Shown: positions 46,265 through 53,254 of the stretch, one piece after another
Position numbering within the stretch: the first letter of the stretch is position 1
Layout: every line of letters begins with the position of its first letter
Source of the DNA: Sphaerisporangium sp. TRM90804
Lineage (GTDB): Bacteria; Actinomycetota; Actinomycetes; Streptosporangiales; Streptosporangiaceae
Direction: 5' to 3'
Length of the DNA stretch: 64,000 nt
NCBI RefSeq assembly: GCF_029846175.1
Contig: NZ_JARWAC010000031.1
Span: 62,001-126,000 of the forward strand
The notes under the pieces: model-generated
The model's database searches: none
Told to the model about the DNA's origin: nothing
What the model saw: the letters and a program-made list of their open reading frames with translations, nothing else
Translations under genes and position numbers: made by a program

Positions 46265-46270
46265 TAACAT
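46265..46270 (+). promoter_or_regulatory. Candidate -10 element for leaderless ctaA
   Basis: TAACAT is followed by 7 nt and GTG 46278. The ATG at 46269 overlaps this element, so it is unlikely to be the true start. Confidence 0.45.
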
Positions 46271-46277
46271 GTTTGCC

Positions 46278-47306
46278 GTGACCACAACAGACCAGCCGGA
46301 AAGCCCCGTCGGCGGCCCCCGCGGGCGCCTCTCACGCCTCCGGGCGTACACGCTGGTGTTCCTGCACAGCGCGTGGTCGCCGACCCCGCTCACGTTCCGG
46401 CGGTGGGCGCTGGCGGGAGTGGTCGTCAACGCGCTGATCGCGGTCACCGGCGCGGCGGTGCGCGTCACCGGCTCGGGGCTCGGCTGCCCCACCTGGCCCC
46501 GCTGCACGCCCGAGAGCTTCGTGCCCGTCCCGCACGACGACCACTCCCCGATCAACATGGCGATCGAGTTCGGCAACCGGCTCCTGACCTTCCTGGTGCT
46601 GGCCGTCGCGGTCGCCTGCGTGATCGCGGCGATGCGCCTGCTGCCCCGGCGGGCCGCGCTGGTCCGCCTGGCGTGGATCCAGCCCGTCGGCGTCGCCTTC
46701 CAGGCGCTGTGGGGCGGCCTCGTGGTGCGCACGATGCTCAACCCGGTCACGGTGAGCGTCCACTTCCTGGTGACGATCGGCATGATCGCGGTGGCGTTCG
46801 CGCTGTACGCCCGTTCAGGCGAGGGCGACGCCCCGCCCCGGCGGCTCGTCCACCGCGACATCCGCACGCTCGGCTTCGTCCTCGTCACGGCCGTCGCGGT
46901 GCTGCTGGTGGCGGGGGTGGTGGTCACCGGCACCGGCCCGCACTCCGGCGACGAGGCCGCCTCGCGCTTCGACTTCGACATCGAGACCATGGCCCGGCTG
47001 CACGCCGACACGGTGTGGATCGTGCTCGGCCTCACGTTCGCGCTGCTGTTCGCCCTGCACGTCACCGACTCCCCGGGGCGGGCGCGGCGCGGCGCGCTGA
47101 TCCTGCTGGGCGTCGAGCTGGCCCAGGGGGTCGTCGGTTACGTCCAGTACTTCCTCGCCGTCCCGGCGTTCCTGGTGGGCGTGCACGTGCTCGGCGCCAC
47201 CCTGGTCTGGATCGCCACGCTGCGGGTGGTGTTCCTGATGCGCTCGCGGGGCCCGGCCGGCGCGACGGCCCCCGGCCCCGACCGCCTGGACGCCGTCGTC
47301 GTCTGA
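46278..47306 (+). CDS. ctaA: Heme A synthase (COX15/CtaA)
   Basis: This protein of about 342 residues has eight predicted membrane helices in two four-helix bundles. It oxidises heme O to heme A for aa3-type cytochrome oxidase. Seen are the Cys pair in SGLGCPTWPRC, the loop Glu in MAIEFGNRLLTF and candidate heme-ligand His in VSVHFLV, LHADTVWIV and VGVHVLGATL. GTG 46278 is preferred because a TANNNT element lies 7 nt before it; ATG 46269 would add three residues. No cta partner gene is next to it in this window. Confidence 0.93.
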   Translation: MTTTDQPESPVGGPRGRLSRLRAYTLVFLHSAWSPTPLTFRRWALAGVVVNALIAVTGAAVRVTGSGLGCPTWPRCTPESFVPVPHDDHSPINMAIEFGNRLLTFLVLAVAVACVIAAMRLLPRRAALVRLAWIQPVGVAFQALWGGLVVRTMLNPVTVSVHFLVTIGMIAVAFALYARSGEGDAPPRRLVHRDIRTLGFVLVTAVAVLLVAGVVVTGTGPHSGDEAASRFDFDIETMARLHADTVWIVLGLTFALLFALHVTDSPGRARRGALILLGVELAQGVVGYVQYFLAVPAFLVGVHVLGATLVWIATLRVVFLMRSRGPAGATAPGPDRLDAVVV

Positions 47307-47634
47307 CGGGCGGCCCCGCACGGCGCCGGCCCGGGGCGCCACCGGCCGCCGTGGCGCGTGCCGGCGGCGACCGGCCCGCCGTGACGGCGGACGATCTCTC
47401 CCGGCGATCCGCCGGCGGCGTCCCGGCCGCCGGCCGGCGGCACGGGGTGAGTGGAACTTTCACGTGCGGCCGGCGGGCCGGGTGCGGGCCTTCCAGAGCC
47501 TGACTCGCGGCGTCGCCCTCGGCCGTCGTGAGCGCGGCCCGTGGACGGCTCGCCGGTGTTTGACATGGTCGCCGGCGGATTCCTAGCTTCGGGGCCCCTG
47601 GTGCTCAATCCCCCACGCCCAGATGGGACCCCCC
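47307..47634. promoter_or_regulatory. Upstream region of the rhamnogalacturonan lyase with promoter-like boxes
   Basis: TTGACA (47560-47565), an 18-bp spacer and TAGCTT (47584-47589) form a plausible sigma-70 promoter 45 bp before the gene. An imperfect palindrome GTGGAACTTTCAC (47451-47463) about 100 bp further up resembles LacI-type operators of glycosidase genes. The part just after ctaA is GC-rich with GCCGGC runs and no gene. Confidence 0.45.
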
Positions 47635-49899
47635 ATGAGACGTTCGACCCTGCCGGTGAGCCGCGTGACCGCGCTCATCGGGACGCTCGCGCTGGCGGTC
47701 ACCGGAGTGATCGCCTTACGGTCGCCGGCCGACGCCGCGGTGGCCTGTGACGTCGACTACACCGTCAGCAGCCAGTGGGGCGGCGGCTTCAACGCCGACG
47801 TCACGGTCCGCAACCTCGGCGACGCCGTCAACGGCTGGCGCCTCACATGGTCGTTCGACGCGGGCCAGCAGGTCACCCAGGTGTGGAACGGCACCCACTC
47901 CCAGACCGGGAGCTCGGTGACCGTGAGCGACGCCGGGTACAACGCGGCGATCCCGTCCGGAGGCAGCGCCGCGTTCGGCTTCAACGCCTCCTTCACCGGC
48001 TCCAACCCGGCTCCCGCCTCCTTCGCCCTCAACGGCGTCGCGTGCACCGGCGCGGCGGAGCCGACCCCCACCGCCACGCCCACGGCGACCCCCACCGCCA
48101 CCCCGACCGTCACCCCGACCGTGACGCCCACTCCCACGCCGACGGTCACCCCGACGGCGCCCCCGCCCGGCGCCAAGCAGGTGGAGGACCTGGATCGGGG
48201 TCTGGTGAGCGTGCGGTCCGGAAGCGGGAACCTGGTGTCGTGGCGGTTGCTGGGCACCGAGTCCCGGGACACGACGTTCAACGTCTACCGGGGTGGCGCC
48301 CGGGTCGCGACGGTGGCCGACTCCACCAACTGGCTGGACGCCGGCGCCGCCGCCGACGCCTCGTACACGGTGCGCGCGGTGGTGGGCGGGGTGGAGCAGC
48401 CCGCCTCCCCGGCGTCGTCGCGGCTGGCCAACGGGTACCTGGACGTGCCGATCACTCCGCCCGGTTCCACGTACGCGGCCAACGACGCCAGTGTGGGGGA
48501 CCTTGACGGCGACGGGCGGCTGGAGGTGGTGCTGAAGTGGGACCCGGCCGACGCCAAGGACAACTCCCAGTCCGGGGTGACCTCTCCGGTGTACGTGGAC
48601 GCGGTGCGGCTGGACGGGACCCGGCTGTGGCGGATCAACCTGGGGCGCAACATCCGCGCCGGGGCGCACTACACCCAGTTCCAGGTGTACGACTACGACG
48701 GTGACGGGCGGGCCGAGGTGGCGATGAAGACCGCCGACGGCACCGTCGACGGCACCGGCCGCGTGATCGGCAACGCGAGCGCCAACTACGTCAACTCCAG
48801 CGGGTACATCCTGACCGGCCCGGAGTTCCTGACCATGTTCAGCGGGCAGACCGGCGCCGCGCTGTCGACCGTCAACTACGAGCCGCCGCGCGGCACGGTG
48901 TCCTCCTGGGGGGACAACTACGGCAACCGGGTCGACCGGTTCCTGGCCGGCACCGCCTACCTGGACGGCCAGCGCCCCAGCCTGATCATGGCGCGCGGGT
49001 ACTACACCCGGGCCGTCATCGCCGCCTGGGACTTCCGCAACGGCGCGTTGACCCGGCGCTGGACCTTCGACTCCAACGCCTCGGGCAACAGCGCCTACGC
49101 CGGCCAGGGCAACCACAACCTGTCGATCGCCGACGTGGACGGCGACGGGCGCGATGAGATCGTCTACGGCGCGGCGACCGTCAACGACAACGGGACCGGC
49201 CTGTACAGCACCCGGTTCGGGCACGGTGACGCCCTGCACGCCGGCGACCTGATCCCCAGCCGTCCCGGGCTGGAGGTGTTCACCATCCACGAGTCCGGCG
49301 ACCAGCCCGCCGCCGACGTGCATGACGCGCGCACCGGCCAGGTCATCTTCCAGCGGCCCGGCAACGGCGGCGCCGAGGGCCCCGGCCGCGGCGTGGCCGC
49401 CGACATCCACCCGGGCAGCCCGGGCGCCGAGTTCTGGGGGTCGGGCACCAACATGTCGGGGATCTACAACGCCTCCGGCGCCCAGGTCGGCCGCCAGCCG
49501 TCCTCGGCGAACTTCCTGGCCTGGTGGGACGGCGACCCGGTGCGTGAGCTGGTGGACGCCACCCGGATCGACAAGTACGGCACCAGCGCCGACACCCGGC
49601 TGCTGACCGCCTCGGGGGTGCACTCCAACAACGGCACCAAGGCCACCCCGTCGCTGTCGGGCGACATCCTGGGCGACTGGCGCGAGGAGGTCATCTGGCC
49701 CACCAGCGACAACCGGGCGCTGCGGATCTACTCCACCCCGCACGTCACCACCACCAAGATCCACACCCTGCTGCACGACCCGCAGTACCGCGTCGCGCTG
49801 GCCTGGCAGAACACCGCCTACAACCAGCCGCCCCACCCCGGGTTCTTCATCGGCAACGGCATGTCCACCCCGGCCCAGCCCAACGTCTACGTGAGATAG
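47635..49899 (+). CDS. Secreted rhamnogalacturonan lyase, CBM2 plus PL11
   Basis: This protein of about 754 residues has a signal peptide (residues 1-35), a CBM2 (about 36-137; SSQWGGGFNADVTVRNLG, WNGTHSQTGSSVTVSDAGYNA), a Thr/Pro linker (about 142-183) and a PL11 beta-propeller (about 185-750; LDGDGRLEVVLKWDPADAKDN, YDYDGDGRAEVAMKTADGT, DGDGRDEIVYGAATV). PL11 enzymes cleave the pectin rhamnogalacturonan I backbone by beta-elimination with calcium, as YesW/YesX do. CBM2 usually binds cellulose, anchoring it to plant walls. Codon 28 is TTA (47716-47718), so translation may depend on a bldA-type tRNA. ATG 47623 is an alternative start. Confidence 0.93.
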   Translation: MRRSTLPVSRVTALIGTLALAVTGVIALRSPADAAVACDVDYTVSSQWGGGFNADVTVRNLGDAVNGWRLTWSFDAGQQVTQVWNGTHSQTGSSVTVSDAGYNAAIPSGGSAAFGFNASFTGSNPAPASFALNGVACTGAAEPTPTATPTATPTATPTVTPTVTPTPTPTVTPTAPPPGAKQVEDLDRGLVSVRSGSGNLVSWRLLGTESRDTTFNVYRGGARVATVADSTNWLDAGAAADASYTVRAVVGGVEQPASPASSRLANGYLDVPITPPGSTYAANDASVGDLDGDGRLEVVLKWDPADAKDNSQSGVTSPVYVDAVRLDGTRLWRINLGRNIRAGAHYTQFQVYDYDGDGRAEVAMKTADGTVDGTGRVIGNASANYVNSSGYILTGPEFLTMFSGQTGAALSTVNYEPPRGTVSSWGDNYGNRVDRFLAGTAYLDGQRPSLIMARGYYTRAVIAAWDFRNGALTRRWTFDSNASGNSAYAGQGNHNLSIADVDGDGRDEIVYGAATVNDNGTGLYSTRFGHGDALHAGDLIPSRPGLEVFTIHESGDQPAADVHDARTGQVIFQRPGNGGAEGPGRGVAADIHPGSPGAEFWGSGTNMSGIYNASGAQVGRQPSSANFLAWWDGDPVRELVDATRIDKYGTSADTRLLTASGVHSNNGTKATPSLSGDILGDWREEVIWPTSDNRALRIYSTPHVTTTKIHTLLHDPQYRVALAWQNTAYNQPPHPGFFIGNGMSTPAQPNVYVR

Positions 49900-49948: not shown

Positions 49949-49959
49949 CGAAAGTTTCA
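49949..49959. promoter_or_regulatory. CGAAAGTTTCA, XlnR/BxlR-like operator candidate
   Basis: It matches 10 of 11 bases of the CGAAAGTTTCG element I recall for actinomycete xylanolytic LacI regulators. It lies between two convergent genes, so its target is unclear. Confidence 0.3.
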
Positions 49960-50073: not shown

Positions 50074-50087
50074 TGGGAGCGCTCCCA
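50074..50087. promoter_or_regulatory. Perfect CelR/CebR operator TGGGAGCGCTCCCA
   Basis: This is an exact copy of the 14-bp inverted repeat bound by Thermobifida CelR and Streptomyces CebR upstream of cellulase and cellobiose-uptake genes. Here it lies 175 bp after the rhamnogalacturonan lyase stop and 134 bp from the AA10 gene stop, upstream of neither. Confidence 0.85.
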
Positions 50088-50220
50088 ACAACCAGGGTCC
50101 GACGCCGGAGGGAGGTGGCGCCTCTCGCCTGTGCCACCACAACCGCGTAGCTCGTCCAGTCGGGACGCCGCGAGGCCGTGAGGCGGCCGCCTACTCCGCC
50201 TCACGGCTCCCGCGCGCCGG

Positions 50221-51270
50221 CTACCCGCAGCTCACCTCCGAGATGGCCGGCGGCGTCGCCCCGGGCATCTTGCCCAGGAAGCCGGCGCTCATCGAGGCCC
50301 CCGGCTCCAGCCTGCGGTTCCACTTCTCCGCGTGGATCATGGCGATCGGGCCGCTCTGCATGTGCGTCCCGTCCCATGCCTGGGTGAGCTTGGCGTCCAT
50401 CGGCATCATCGTCCACTGGACGAACCACTCGTTGATGGGCGCGCTTCCGGTGTTCGTGATGGTGACCGAGCCCTGGAACCCGCCGGGCCAGGACTTCTCC
50501 AGCTTCACATCGCCGGAGCAGGAGATCGGCGACGCCGTGCCCGGGGACGGGGACGGGGACGGGGAGCCGGACGACGGCGCGCTCGGCGCGGCGCTGCCCT
50601 GCGGCGGGGCGGAGGCGGTGAAGATGACGTCCGAGCAGCCGTAGAAGGTCTCCCGGCCGTCGGACCCCTGCCAGACCGAGTAGATGAGATGACGGCCCGA
50701 CTTGCCCGGCAGCGAGCCGGAGAACCGGTAGGCGCCGTCGCCGGCCGCGGGCCGGGGGTCGGCCGTCAGGAAGGGCTGCTCCTCCAGGTCGGCCCAGGTG
50801 AGCGGCATGGTGGGGTTGTAGCCGTCCTTGGTCACGTACAGCTTGACCGCCCCGGGGTGGGGCGCCCCGGCCCCGTAGACGAAGTCGTACTCGGCGCCCG
50901 GCCGCACCAGGGTCGCGGGCCAGTCGGCGCTCGGCGCGTCGTAGGCGGCGTACTTGGCGAACCCGCCGCTGCACAGCTTGCCGTCGGGGATGAACCCCCG
51001 GGTGCGGCCGCCGCCGTCCGAGCGCAGCACGCCGTACCAGTCGCGCAGCGGCTGAGTGCCGCCCGCGGCGACGGCCCGCGCGCAGGCGGCGTTCTTGGGC
51101 TTGATCTCGTCGCCGGAGGTACGCCCGTCGGTGTAGCAGGCGTACGTCCTGCTGGCGGGGGCCTGCAGGGCTCCCTGCGCGACGGCCGAGCGCTGCAGGG
51201 CCAGCGTCGTCAGCCCGGCGGCCGCGACCGCGACCCCGGTGACGATCGCCACCTTTGCCTTGGTTCTCAC
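50221..51270 (-). CDS. AA10 lytic polysaccharide monooxygenase-like protein with CBM2; N-terminal His replaced by Gln
   Basis: This 349-residue secreted protein has a signal peptide (1-31, ending AVA), an AA10 domain (32-220), a Ser/Pro linker (about 221-249) and a CBM2 (250-349). The AA10 part has ALQAPASRTYACYTDG, LPGKSGRHLIYSVWQGSD, the aromatic FYGCSDVIF and the second brace His138 (GAPHPGAVKLYVTKDGYNP). The mature N-terminus, which must be His to bind copper, is Gln32 (CAG at 51175-51177). The fold is otherwise that of cellulose-active C1 oxidisers, but as read it should lack normal copper chemistry. GTG 51270 follows GAAGGAAG. Confidence 0.88.
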   Translation of the reverse strand: MRTKAKVAIVTGVAVAAAGLTTLALQRSAVAQGALQAPASRTYACYTDGRTSGDEIKPKNAACARAVAAGGTQPLRDWYGVLRSDGGGRTRGFIPDGKLCSGGFAKYAAYDAPSADWPATLVRPGAEYDFVYGAGAPHPGAVKLYVTKDGYNPTMPLTWADLEEQPFLTADPRPAAGDGAYRFSGSLPGKSGRHLIYSVWQGSDGRETFYGCSDVIFTASAPPQGSAAPSAPSSGSPSPSPSPGTASPISCSGDVKLEKSWPGGFQGSVTITNTGSAPINEWFVQWTMMPMDAKLTQAWDGTHMQSGPIAMIHAEKWNRRLEPGASMSAGFLGKMPGATPPAISEVSCG

Positions 51271-51651: not shown

Positions 51652-53031
51652 CTAGGCGCCGCCGTCGCCGGCGGGGCCGGGCGGAGGCGCCGGCGGGCCT
51701 CCGGCGTGGGAGCCGCCGCCGTGACGCTCGCGCGGCTCGCCGGACGCCCACCGGCCCGGCGGGCCCTGCCATCCCTGTGCCCGGGCCGTGTAGTGGTCGC
51801 GCGGGATGCCGTCGGGCGGCGGGTAGGGCGAGAGCGGGTGCCGCGTGTCGTGGCCGGGCGCGTACCCGGGGGGCGCCATGCCCCTGGCGATCCGGGTCTC
51901 GTGCAACTCGGGGACGGGGAAGGCCGCCTTGGCCGCGCTCATGCAGGCCAGCAGCGCCTCCCTGTGCTTCTCGAAGGTGTCCCTGTCGATCACCCCGCGC
52001 ACGGCGCGCTCGTGGAGCAGGCCAAGCTCGGTGGCGGCGAGCTGGTAGTCGCGCATCGCGTGCAGGCCCACCATGCCGCCGTACCCCTTGGCCCACTGCC
52101 GGGCCTGCCTGCGTCCCTGCAGGGACGACAGCATGTACAGGTCGACGTCGGAGACCAGCCCCAGGCCGCCGTAGGGCGGCAGGTAGCGCTGGATGAGGCC
52201 GACGATGCGCTTGCGGTCCTGGACGACCACCCCGAGCTCGACGAAGAACAGGATCATCAGCAGCAGGTAGGCCAGCGCCAGGCCCTGGAAGCCGCCGTAG
52301 GAGGTGAAGCCGTTCCAGATGCCGTGCAGGGTGATCGCGCCGAGCCAGCCGAGGAACACCACCCCGCCGCGCACCGGGCCACGGCTCTGCGCGGCGTACG
52401 CCACCGCGATGCCGATCATGGAGGTGAACAGGGGGTGGGCGAACGGCGACAGCACGCCGCGCAGCACCACCGTGACGGCCAGGCCCTGCACGCCGTTGGT
52501 GTCCAGCGCCATGATGTAGTAGCTGACGTTCTCGCTCATGGCGAAGCCCAGGCCCACCATGCCCGCGTAGATGATGCCGTCGGTCGGTCCGTCGAGCTCG
52601 TGACGGCGCCAGCGCAGCAGGCCCAGCAGCACCAGGCCCTTCATCGTCTCCTCGACGACGGGCGCCCCGAAGGTGGCGACCAGGTTGCGGGCGCTGGTGG
52701 CGTCGAGCTGGGTCGCGAGCGTGAGGTACTTGAGGTTGAGGCTGTTGAGCACGCCGGCGACCAGCACCGCGATGCCGGCGCCCCACATGAACGCGAAGAT
52801 CAGGTCTTTGCGGGGCTCGGGCTCCAGCCGGTCGAGCGCGAGCAGGCCGGCGAGCAGCACCGGCACCGGGGCGAGCGCGAGGGTGAGCGCGATGAAGAAG
52901 TGCACCGGTTCGCCGTTGAAGATGTCGAACGAGAACGACACCAGAGCGCAGATGCCGGCCACGACGAGGCCGATGATCAGCCCGCCCGAGGGGCGTTCCT
53001 TCAGCACCCAGCGGGGATCAGCGCTCGTCAT
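51652..53031 (-). CDS. PrsW family intramembrane metalloprotease
   Basis: This protein of about 459 residues has around nine membrane helices and the PrsW motifs: the paired Glu in APVVEETMKGL (about 125), FAMSENVSYY, SPFAHPLFTSMIGIAVA and ITLHGIWNGF. The family cleaves membrane proteins such as anti-sigma factors, and no obvious substrate is adjacent. The last 60 residues are a Pro/Gly-rich cytoplasmic tail. ATG 53031 was chosen because conserved sequence starts there (TSADPRWVLKERP). Confidence 0.88.
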   Translation of the reverse strand: MTSADPRWVLKERPSGGLIIGLVVAGICALVSFSFDIFNGEPVHFFIALTLALAPVPVLLAGLLALDRLEPEPRKDLIFAFMWGAGIAVLVAGVLNSLNLKYLTLATQLDATSARNLVATFGAPVVEETMKGLVLLGLLRWRRHELDGPTDGIIYAGMVGLGFAMSENVSYYIMALDTNGVQGLAVTVVLRGVLSPFAHPLFTSMIGIAVAYAAQSRGPVRGGVVFLGWLGAITLHGIWNGFTSYGGFQGLALAYLLLMILFFVELGVVVQDRKRIVGLIQRYLPPYGGLGLVSDVDLYMLSSLQGRRQARQWAKGYGGMVGLHAMRDYQLAATELGLLHERAVRGVIDRDTFEKHREALLACMSAAKAAFPVPELHETRIARGMAPPGYAPGHDTRHPLSPYPPPDGIPRDHYTARAQGWQGPPGRWASGEPRERHGGGSHAGGPPAPPPGPAGDGGA

Positions 53032-53254
53032 GTCCGCGAGCGTAATCGACCGGGCACGACCTGTCCGCCCCGCCCCCCACCGCCATACGGCTCCCCCATC
53101 ATCGTCACCGCGGCTCCGCCTTCCCGAGGCAAAGACCCTTCCCCGGGATGAACGGCCCCACACCCCAACAAGACCGAGATTCCCGGCGCACCGCCGGCGG
53201 ACCGACGGATCGGCGTCCCACCCGTCACACCGGACCGGAGGGGCGCGCCCGTGG

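Follow-up and report, generated by a model that had tools for sequence, protein, structure and literature searches.

The AA10-CBM2 gene and its neighbours

The window, by which we mean the whole stretch of 64,000 nucleotides that was analysed, comes from a soil actinomycete and carries an intact, full-length gene whose product comprises, in this order, a signal peptide, an AA10 domain and a CBM2 (Table 1). When derived again, the open reading frame, its coordinates and its translation were identical to those of the first-pass annotation. Residues are numbered in the mature protein, in which Gln32 of the precursor is position 1.

Table 1. Features of the AA10-CBM2 locus, in window coordinates
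Feature	Position	Strand	Remarks
AA10-CBM2 protein gene	50221..51270	(-)	349 aa, GTG start
Shine-Dalgarno-like GAGAAGGAAG	immediately 5' of the GTG start		spotted by eye
Signal peptide, residues 1-31, C-terminal end ...RSAVA	51178..51270	(-)	AxA boundary aligned with orthologs
Codon CAG, Gln32, mature position 1 (copper-ligand His in His1 orthologs)	51175..51177	(-)	
AA10 (LPMO_10) domain without His1	50620..51177	(-)	Pfam, AlphaFold2, Foldseek
Y45R, equivalent of ScLPMO10C Tyr79	51043..51045	(-)	4oy7 alignment; Tyr invariant in 12 His1 orthologs
W104G, equivalent of ScLPMO10C Trp141	50866..50868	(-)	4oy7 alignment
His107 (precursor His138), second brace His, retained in the window	50857..50859	(-)	Arg in G007
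R171G, equivalent of ScLPMO10C Arg212, copper second sphere	50665..50667	(-)	4oy7 alignment
CBM2, Trp at three compared sites	50242..50508	(-)	Pfam CBM_2, E 6.9e-23
Hairpin past the stop codon, possible terminator	50175..50207	(-)	weak, whole-stretch z -1.74
PrsW-family protease, conserved neighbour	51652..53163	(-)	
COX15/CtaA-family protein, conserved neighbour on the opposite side	46269..47306	(+)	

The protein matches the Pfam profile LPMO_10 with 172.9 bits against a cut-off of 23 (E 1.5e-50). The match covers profile positions 2-183 of 183; since position 2 is the first one matched, it begins past the histidine column. AlphaFold2 models of the AA10 domains of the window protein and of its ortholog in genome G007 have a mean pLDDT of 94 each. 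The three best solved AA10s found by Foldseek for the window model, Tma12 (6if7), ScLPMO10D (7zjb) and ScLPMO10C (4oy7), align with it at TM-scores of 0.90-0.94. The predicted model supports the retention of the AA10 fold, and it carries no information on metal. A lost brace ligand in a conserved fold, as the first-pass annotation had it, is thus what we find. Its statement that the CBM2 is kept also holds as far as the profile match and the three surface Trp residues can indicate.

The PrsW protease gene and the CtaA-family gene flank the LPMO gene here and in each of the five genomes compared. In the window, the interval between the LPMO and CtaA genes also holds a gene (47623-49899) for a rhamnogalacturonan lyase family 11 protein with an N-terminal CBM2. 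In the five compared stretches, the lyase finds CBM2-sized matches alone (L175-L178) or none (L174).

Residue 1 in the window protein and in its relatives

The cleavage site was placed by ortholog alignment, and the AxA boundary agrees with the annotated cut after AVA that leaves Gln32. The codon there is CAG, and the predicted mature protein begins with Gln in place of His1. The precursor contains His at residues 138, 194, 303 and 313. Because the first of these is residue 138, cleavage elsewhere near the N-terminus could not expose a His, and an alternative cleavage site is rejected as an explanation. The second brace histidine, His107, is present. Without His1, the T-shaped copper brace of LPMOs cannot form.

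The annotation regarded His at this position as invariant in AA10 enzymes. His1 is present in 80 of 80 named-genome relatives (the best 80 of 185 found); the scan took one genome per species over 84,980 species and could find relatives only through one of six exact peptide patterns. A family-wide search of 341 genomes, in which the 30 best loci were read, gave 28 loci with His1, the window with Gln and G007 with Ser. Within the genus, 2 of 55 AA10 matches begin at profile position 2, and these are the window and G007.

In the wider surveys the start of the profile match served as a proxy for His1. Sampling across the order gave, among the matches listed, 147 of 150 that begin at position 1. 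The other three are the window, a match beside a contig edge and, in G341, a match close to a contig start that lacks its 5' part. The genus of G367 (41 genomes) has 146 AA10 matches, 140 of them beginning at position 1. On reading, two of the six exceptions have His1, one is degraded and one has undetermined bases at that place; the remaining two, judged by the match listing, are a match split in two and one at a contig edge. The degraded copy, L182 in G510, spans profile positions 28-165 and has an inner stop. AA10 matches occur in just 6 of the 149 genomes of a phylum sample and in 0 of 35 genomes of the family around G407. The window genome itself has five other AA10s; L001, L002, L004 and L005 were read and have His1, and the fifth, L006, matches from profile position 1, the start of the match being its sole criterion.

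The second brace-less copy (L174 9088-10101) comes from G007, which belongs to the same genus and consists of a single contig. This copy has the same architecture and a full-length ORF, and six Cys are present in both copies. Its N-terminal region reads ...PAEA|SGALQAPASRTYACY, which gives Ser1 under the aligned cleavage, and GAGQPRP, which replaces the GAWVPHP of His1 orthologs, puts Arg at 107. Both brace histidines are therefore absent. In its CBM2, the third Trp site is gone too (HAPDSKPR). The orthologs of S. perillae (L007) and S. corydalis (L009) occupy the same locus with AA10 identities of 83% and 79%; unlike the window protein, they have a complete brace and the GAWVPHPG and RSDSQ segments. 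A pseudogene with stops was considered and is ruled out by the intact ORFs of the window and G007.

The pyroglutamate or other-metal chemistry suggested in the first-pass annotation may apply to the window copy; judged by its residues, the G007 copy with Ser1 and Arg107 cannot share it. No brace-less AA10 was found in the literature within reach of the search terms used. At least one AA10 survey crops every sequence to begin at the copper-binding His (PMC11137697), and brace-less AA10s could thereby escape notice.

Changes on the former copper face, selection and descent

Across 12 His1 orthologs, 125 AA10 positions are invariant. The window protein changes nine of them: H1Q, Y45R, W104G, V105A, G110A, V145A, R171G, S174G and Q175R. 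G007 changes 24, covering 8 of the window's 9. The replacements Y45R, W104G and S174G are identical in the two copies, and the residues at positions 1, 105, 107, 110 and 175 differ between them. An overlap of at least 8 of 9 has a hypergeometric probability of 5e-6, although shared descent would produce overlap too.

The changes are clustered along the sequence. Face windows, which are the stretches around residues 1, 45, 107 and 178 and were chosen after the changes had been seen, contain 37 of the 125 invariant positions. They hold 8 of the 9 window changes (Fisher p 2e-4) and 13 of the 24 in G007 (p 0.005), both values being subject to this post hoc choice. As a control, each His1 ortholog was compared with the other 11; 11 of the 12 change 0-3 positions with zero in the face, the exception being L021 with 8 changes, 3 of them in the face. 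The first-pass explanation by one base, from CAC to CAG, is therefore insufficient: eight other invariant positions are changed, seven of them in the face windows.

Alignment to 4OY7 equates Y45, W104 and R171 with Tyr79, Trp141 and Arg212 of ScLPMO10C. As far as the excerpts of these papers go, Tyr79 is named as important in cellulose binding (PMC7708162), a gain of chitin activity needed mutation of Trp141 together with Phe82 (PMC10067821), and Arg212 belongs to a key second-sphere quartet, which in C1 cellulose-active AA10s consists of Arg212, Asp214, Glu217 and Phe219 of ScAA10C (PMC11137697). At these four positions the window protein has Gly, Asp, Glu and Phe, and G007 has Arg, Gly, Glu and Phe. 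Thus Glu176 and Phe178, which correspond to Glu217 and Phe219, are retained in both copies, and Asp173, which corresponds to Asp214, is Gly in G007. The annotation held that all other hallmarks were kept; the three motifs it quoted are present, but Y45R, W104G and R171G fall on functional positions. Since the face aromatics are lost as well, a binding-only role through the AA10 face is doubtful. Of the proposed binding-only pseudo-LPMO, the loss of the brace ligand stands and binding by the AA10 face is weakened by the changed Tyr79 equivalent. From the sequence, cellulose binding is more likely to occur through the CBM2 than through the AA10 face.

Selection on the gene was examined with omega estimates. 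Identity at fourfold third bases between the window and G007 is 0.58, where 0.47-0.49 is expected by chance, so synonymous sites are near saturation; with dS saturated and the fits halted at 50 iterations, the omega values are rough. Omega = 1 was rejected in 36 of 36 pairwise fits (2dlnL at least 26), including the window-G007 pair (2dlnL 115). A 7-taxon branch model fitted on the gene tree gives the brace-less clade an omega of 0.074 against a background of 0.029 (2dlnL 8.6), and omega = 1 is rejected for it (2dlnL 111). When the two brace-less tips alone are set apart, the relaxation is not significant (0.065 versus 0.033, 2dlnL 3.2), and with separate classes omega = 1 is not rejected for the window tip (-2586.52 versus -2586.62). 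The species-type tree yields, for the window branch, an omega of 0.12 versus 0.030 (2dlnL 11) with omega = 1 rejected (2dlnL 12); on the G007 branch, relaxation is not significant (2dlnL 2.0). The PrsW control displays no significant relaxation (2dlnL 1.6 for the window, about 0 for G007). Constraint on the gene persists but is relaxed, with neutrality rejected in most tests, all by rough omega values.

Whether His1 was lost once or twice bears on this constraint. The full-protein LPMO tree, where the G007 branch is flagged as long, places the window and G007 together (99/97), and so does the tree of AA10 alone (93/93). Without the face columns, AA10 alone groups them weakly (71/64) and AA10 plus CBM2 still places them together (94/94); the CBM2-alone tree gives no resolution of their placement. 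The PrsW tree (94/94) and the CtaA tree (87/87) join the window with G002 and G006 and leave G007 outside. Rows with short matches were left out of the full-protein LPMO tree (L059), the PrsW tree (L015) and the CtaA tree (L010 and L012). AU tests did not reject an LPMO tree forced to group the window with G006 and G002 (p 0.19, 0.36 and 0.13; CBM2 0.48).

Simple descent from a single loss is not accepted, as the PrsW and CtaA trees disagree with the LPMO tree and the AU tests decide neither way. From these sequences, one loss followed by transfer or hidden paralogy, and two losses with long-branch attraction, are both possible. If the losses were independent, much of the constraint may predate them, and decay of the gene could have just begun.

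Role of the protein and operator-like sequences

ScLPMO10C (CelS2, 4OY7), a C1-oxidising, cellulose-active enzyme, shares with the window protein the fold (TM 0.94/0.90, 39% identity) and the AA10-CBM2 architecture, and its His1, Tyr79, Trp141 and Arg212 stand against Gln, Arg, Gly and Gly in the window. In MaLPMO10A, an AA10 of subclade A3, a conserved surface aromatic has also become Arg and the equivalents of Arg198 and Glu203 are changed; unlike the case of the window protein, absence of the brace is not mentioned in the excerpt, which presents it as an LPMO whose production failed (PMC10067821). The closest precedent for an LPMO fold with a replaced His1 comes from fungi.

An unusual fungal AA9 with an N-terminal Arg was reportedly described by Frandsen et al. 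in 2019 (J Biol Chem). According to the excerpt of PMC6950343, no activity was identified when an AA9 containing Arg was characterised, and there are also members with Lys. The window and G007 proteins differ from these AA9s in being bacterial AA10s with Gln or Ser at position 1 and a CBM2, the second His being lost in G007. Pfam places the window protein in LPMO_10 and Foldseek ranks AA10s as its best matches; it thus resembles the brace-less Arg1/Lys1 AA9s in the loss of the brace and is not a member of their family.

The window gene has lost His1 within an intact frame, its predicted fold and its synteny are kept, its changes are clustered, and a second brace-less ortholog exists. As the profile and the fold are those of AA10 and His1 is missing, we file the protein as an AA10-fold pseudo-LPMO and not as an LPMO. 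LPMO chemistry is not expected of it, because without His1 the copper brace is impossible. We put at about 0.6 the probability that it belongs to a secreted brace-less AA10-CBM2 lineage of a Sphaerisporangium-type genus, devoid of histidine-brace monooxygenase action and retained as a CBM2-anchored protein. Under this proposal, the protein would leave the cell with its signal peptide cleaved, and the CBM2 would anchor it on cellulose. With the brace lost, it would neither hold copper in the LPMO manner nor carry out the usual monooxygenase reaction. Selection would keep the AA10 fold, the six cysteines and a CBM2, and the former copper and cellulose face would be released from it. The AA10 body may then act as a non-oxidative module, for instance as a spacer or as a surface-disrupting or partner-binding element, with oxidative activity presumably supplied by the other His1 AA10 genes of the window genome.

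Early decay is the reading we would turn to next, though we consider it rather unlikely. The gene, redundant beside other AA10s, would be drifting, the face having gone first, with either fold stability as the only target of selection or too little time elapsed. The relaxed omega on the gene and not on PrsW, a window-tip omega inseparable from 1 in one model, the different residues at position 1, the third CBM2 Trp missing in G007 and the five other AA10s of the window genome all agree with it. Against it, neither ORF is truncated and each encodes six Cys, both fold models are confident, the window changes are clustered rather than scattered, and the tests reject neutrality of the clade, of G007 and, on the species-type tree, of the window branch.

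It is doubtful that the LPMO fold has been turned into a non-copper binding module. This would fit the loss of the copper ligand, of the face aromatics and, in the window, of the second-sphere Arg, together with Arg45, Gly104 and Gly174 in two species; as the gene tree disagrees with the neighbour trees, the brace-less allele may have passed from one to the other. We regard as slightly more doubtful still a neofunctionalisation in which the former copper face serves as a new site for another glycan, a protein or an ion. The identical Y45R, W104G and S174G and the grouping by AA10 plus CBM2 without face columns (94/94) argue for such a site, but face positions 1, 105, 107, 110 and 175 differ between the copies, AA10 alone without those columns groups them weakly (71/64), and a ligand is not known. 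That an error of sequencing or assembly at 51175 struck an ordinary LPMO is highly improbable. The difference is a single base in a draft genome of 86 contigs; the eight further changes at invariant positions oppose such an error, and since the single-contig G007 has Ser1 and lacks the second brace His, a miscalled base is very unlikely to account for everything.

If the protein is the brace-less, CBM2-anchored one that we favour, the occurrence of brace-less AA10s and His1 orthologs at the same locus would offer a probe of the non-copper roles of the fold. A natural brace-less AA10 would also be a source of natural dead controls.

Downstream of the LPMO stop, an exact CebR/CelR operator palindrome, TGGGAGCGCTCCCA, occurs at 50074-50087 (consensus as given in the excerpts of PMC5332605 and PMC4898821). 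Of the 21 orthologous loci from named genomes, 14 have an operator with at most 1 mismatch on the downstream side of the gene, as does G007. In 14 aligned operator regions, all selected for having an operator, the strand opposite the LPMO has a -10-like TAAGGT/TAGGGT before the operator in 13 (it is absent from the G006 region, L175) and mostly GGAGGTG after it. These sequence features suggest a cellulose-controlled small or antisense transcript that would head to the 3' end of the LPMO gene; the aligned regions have no consistently conserved reading frame for it. Directly upstream of the brace-less gene, no copy of a CebR-type palindrome was found within three mismatches. In the window genome, such palindromes lie upstream of the AA10 domain in L004 (1334-1347, exact) and L005 (1346-1359, one mismatch). 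About 115 bases from the window operator is an element, GAAAGTTTCA (49950-49959), that could be a second operator; of the 14 aligned regions, 13 have it as GAAASTTTC and L175 (the G006 region) lacks it.
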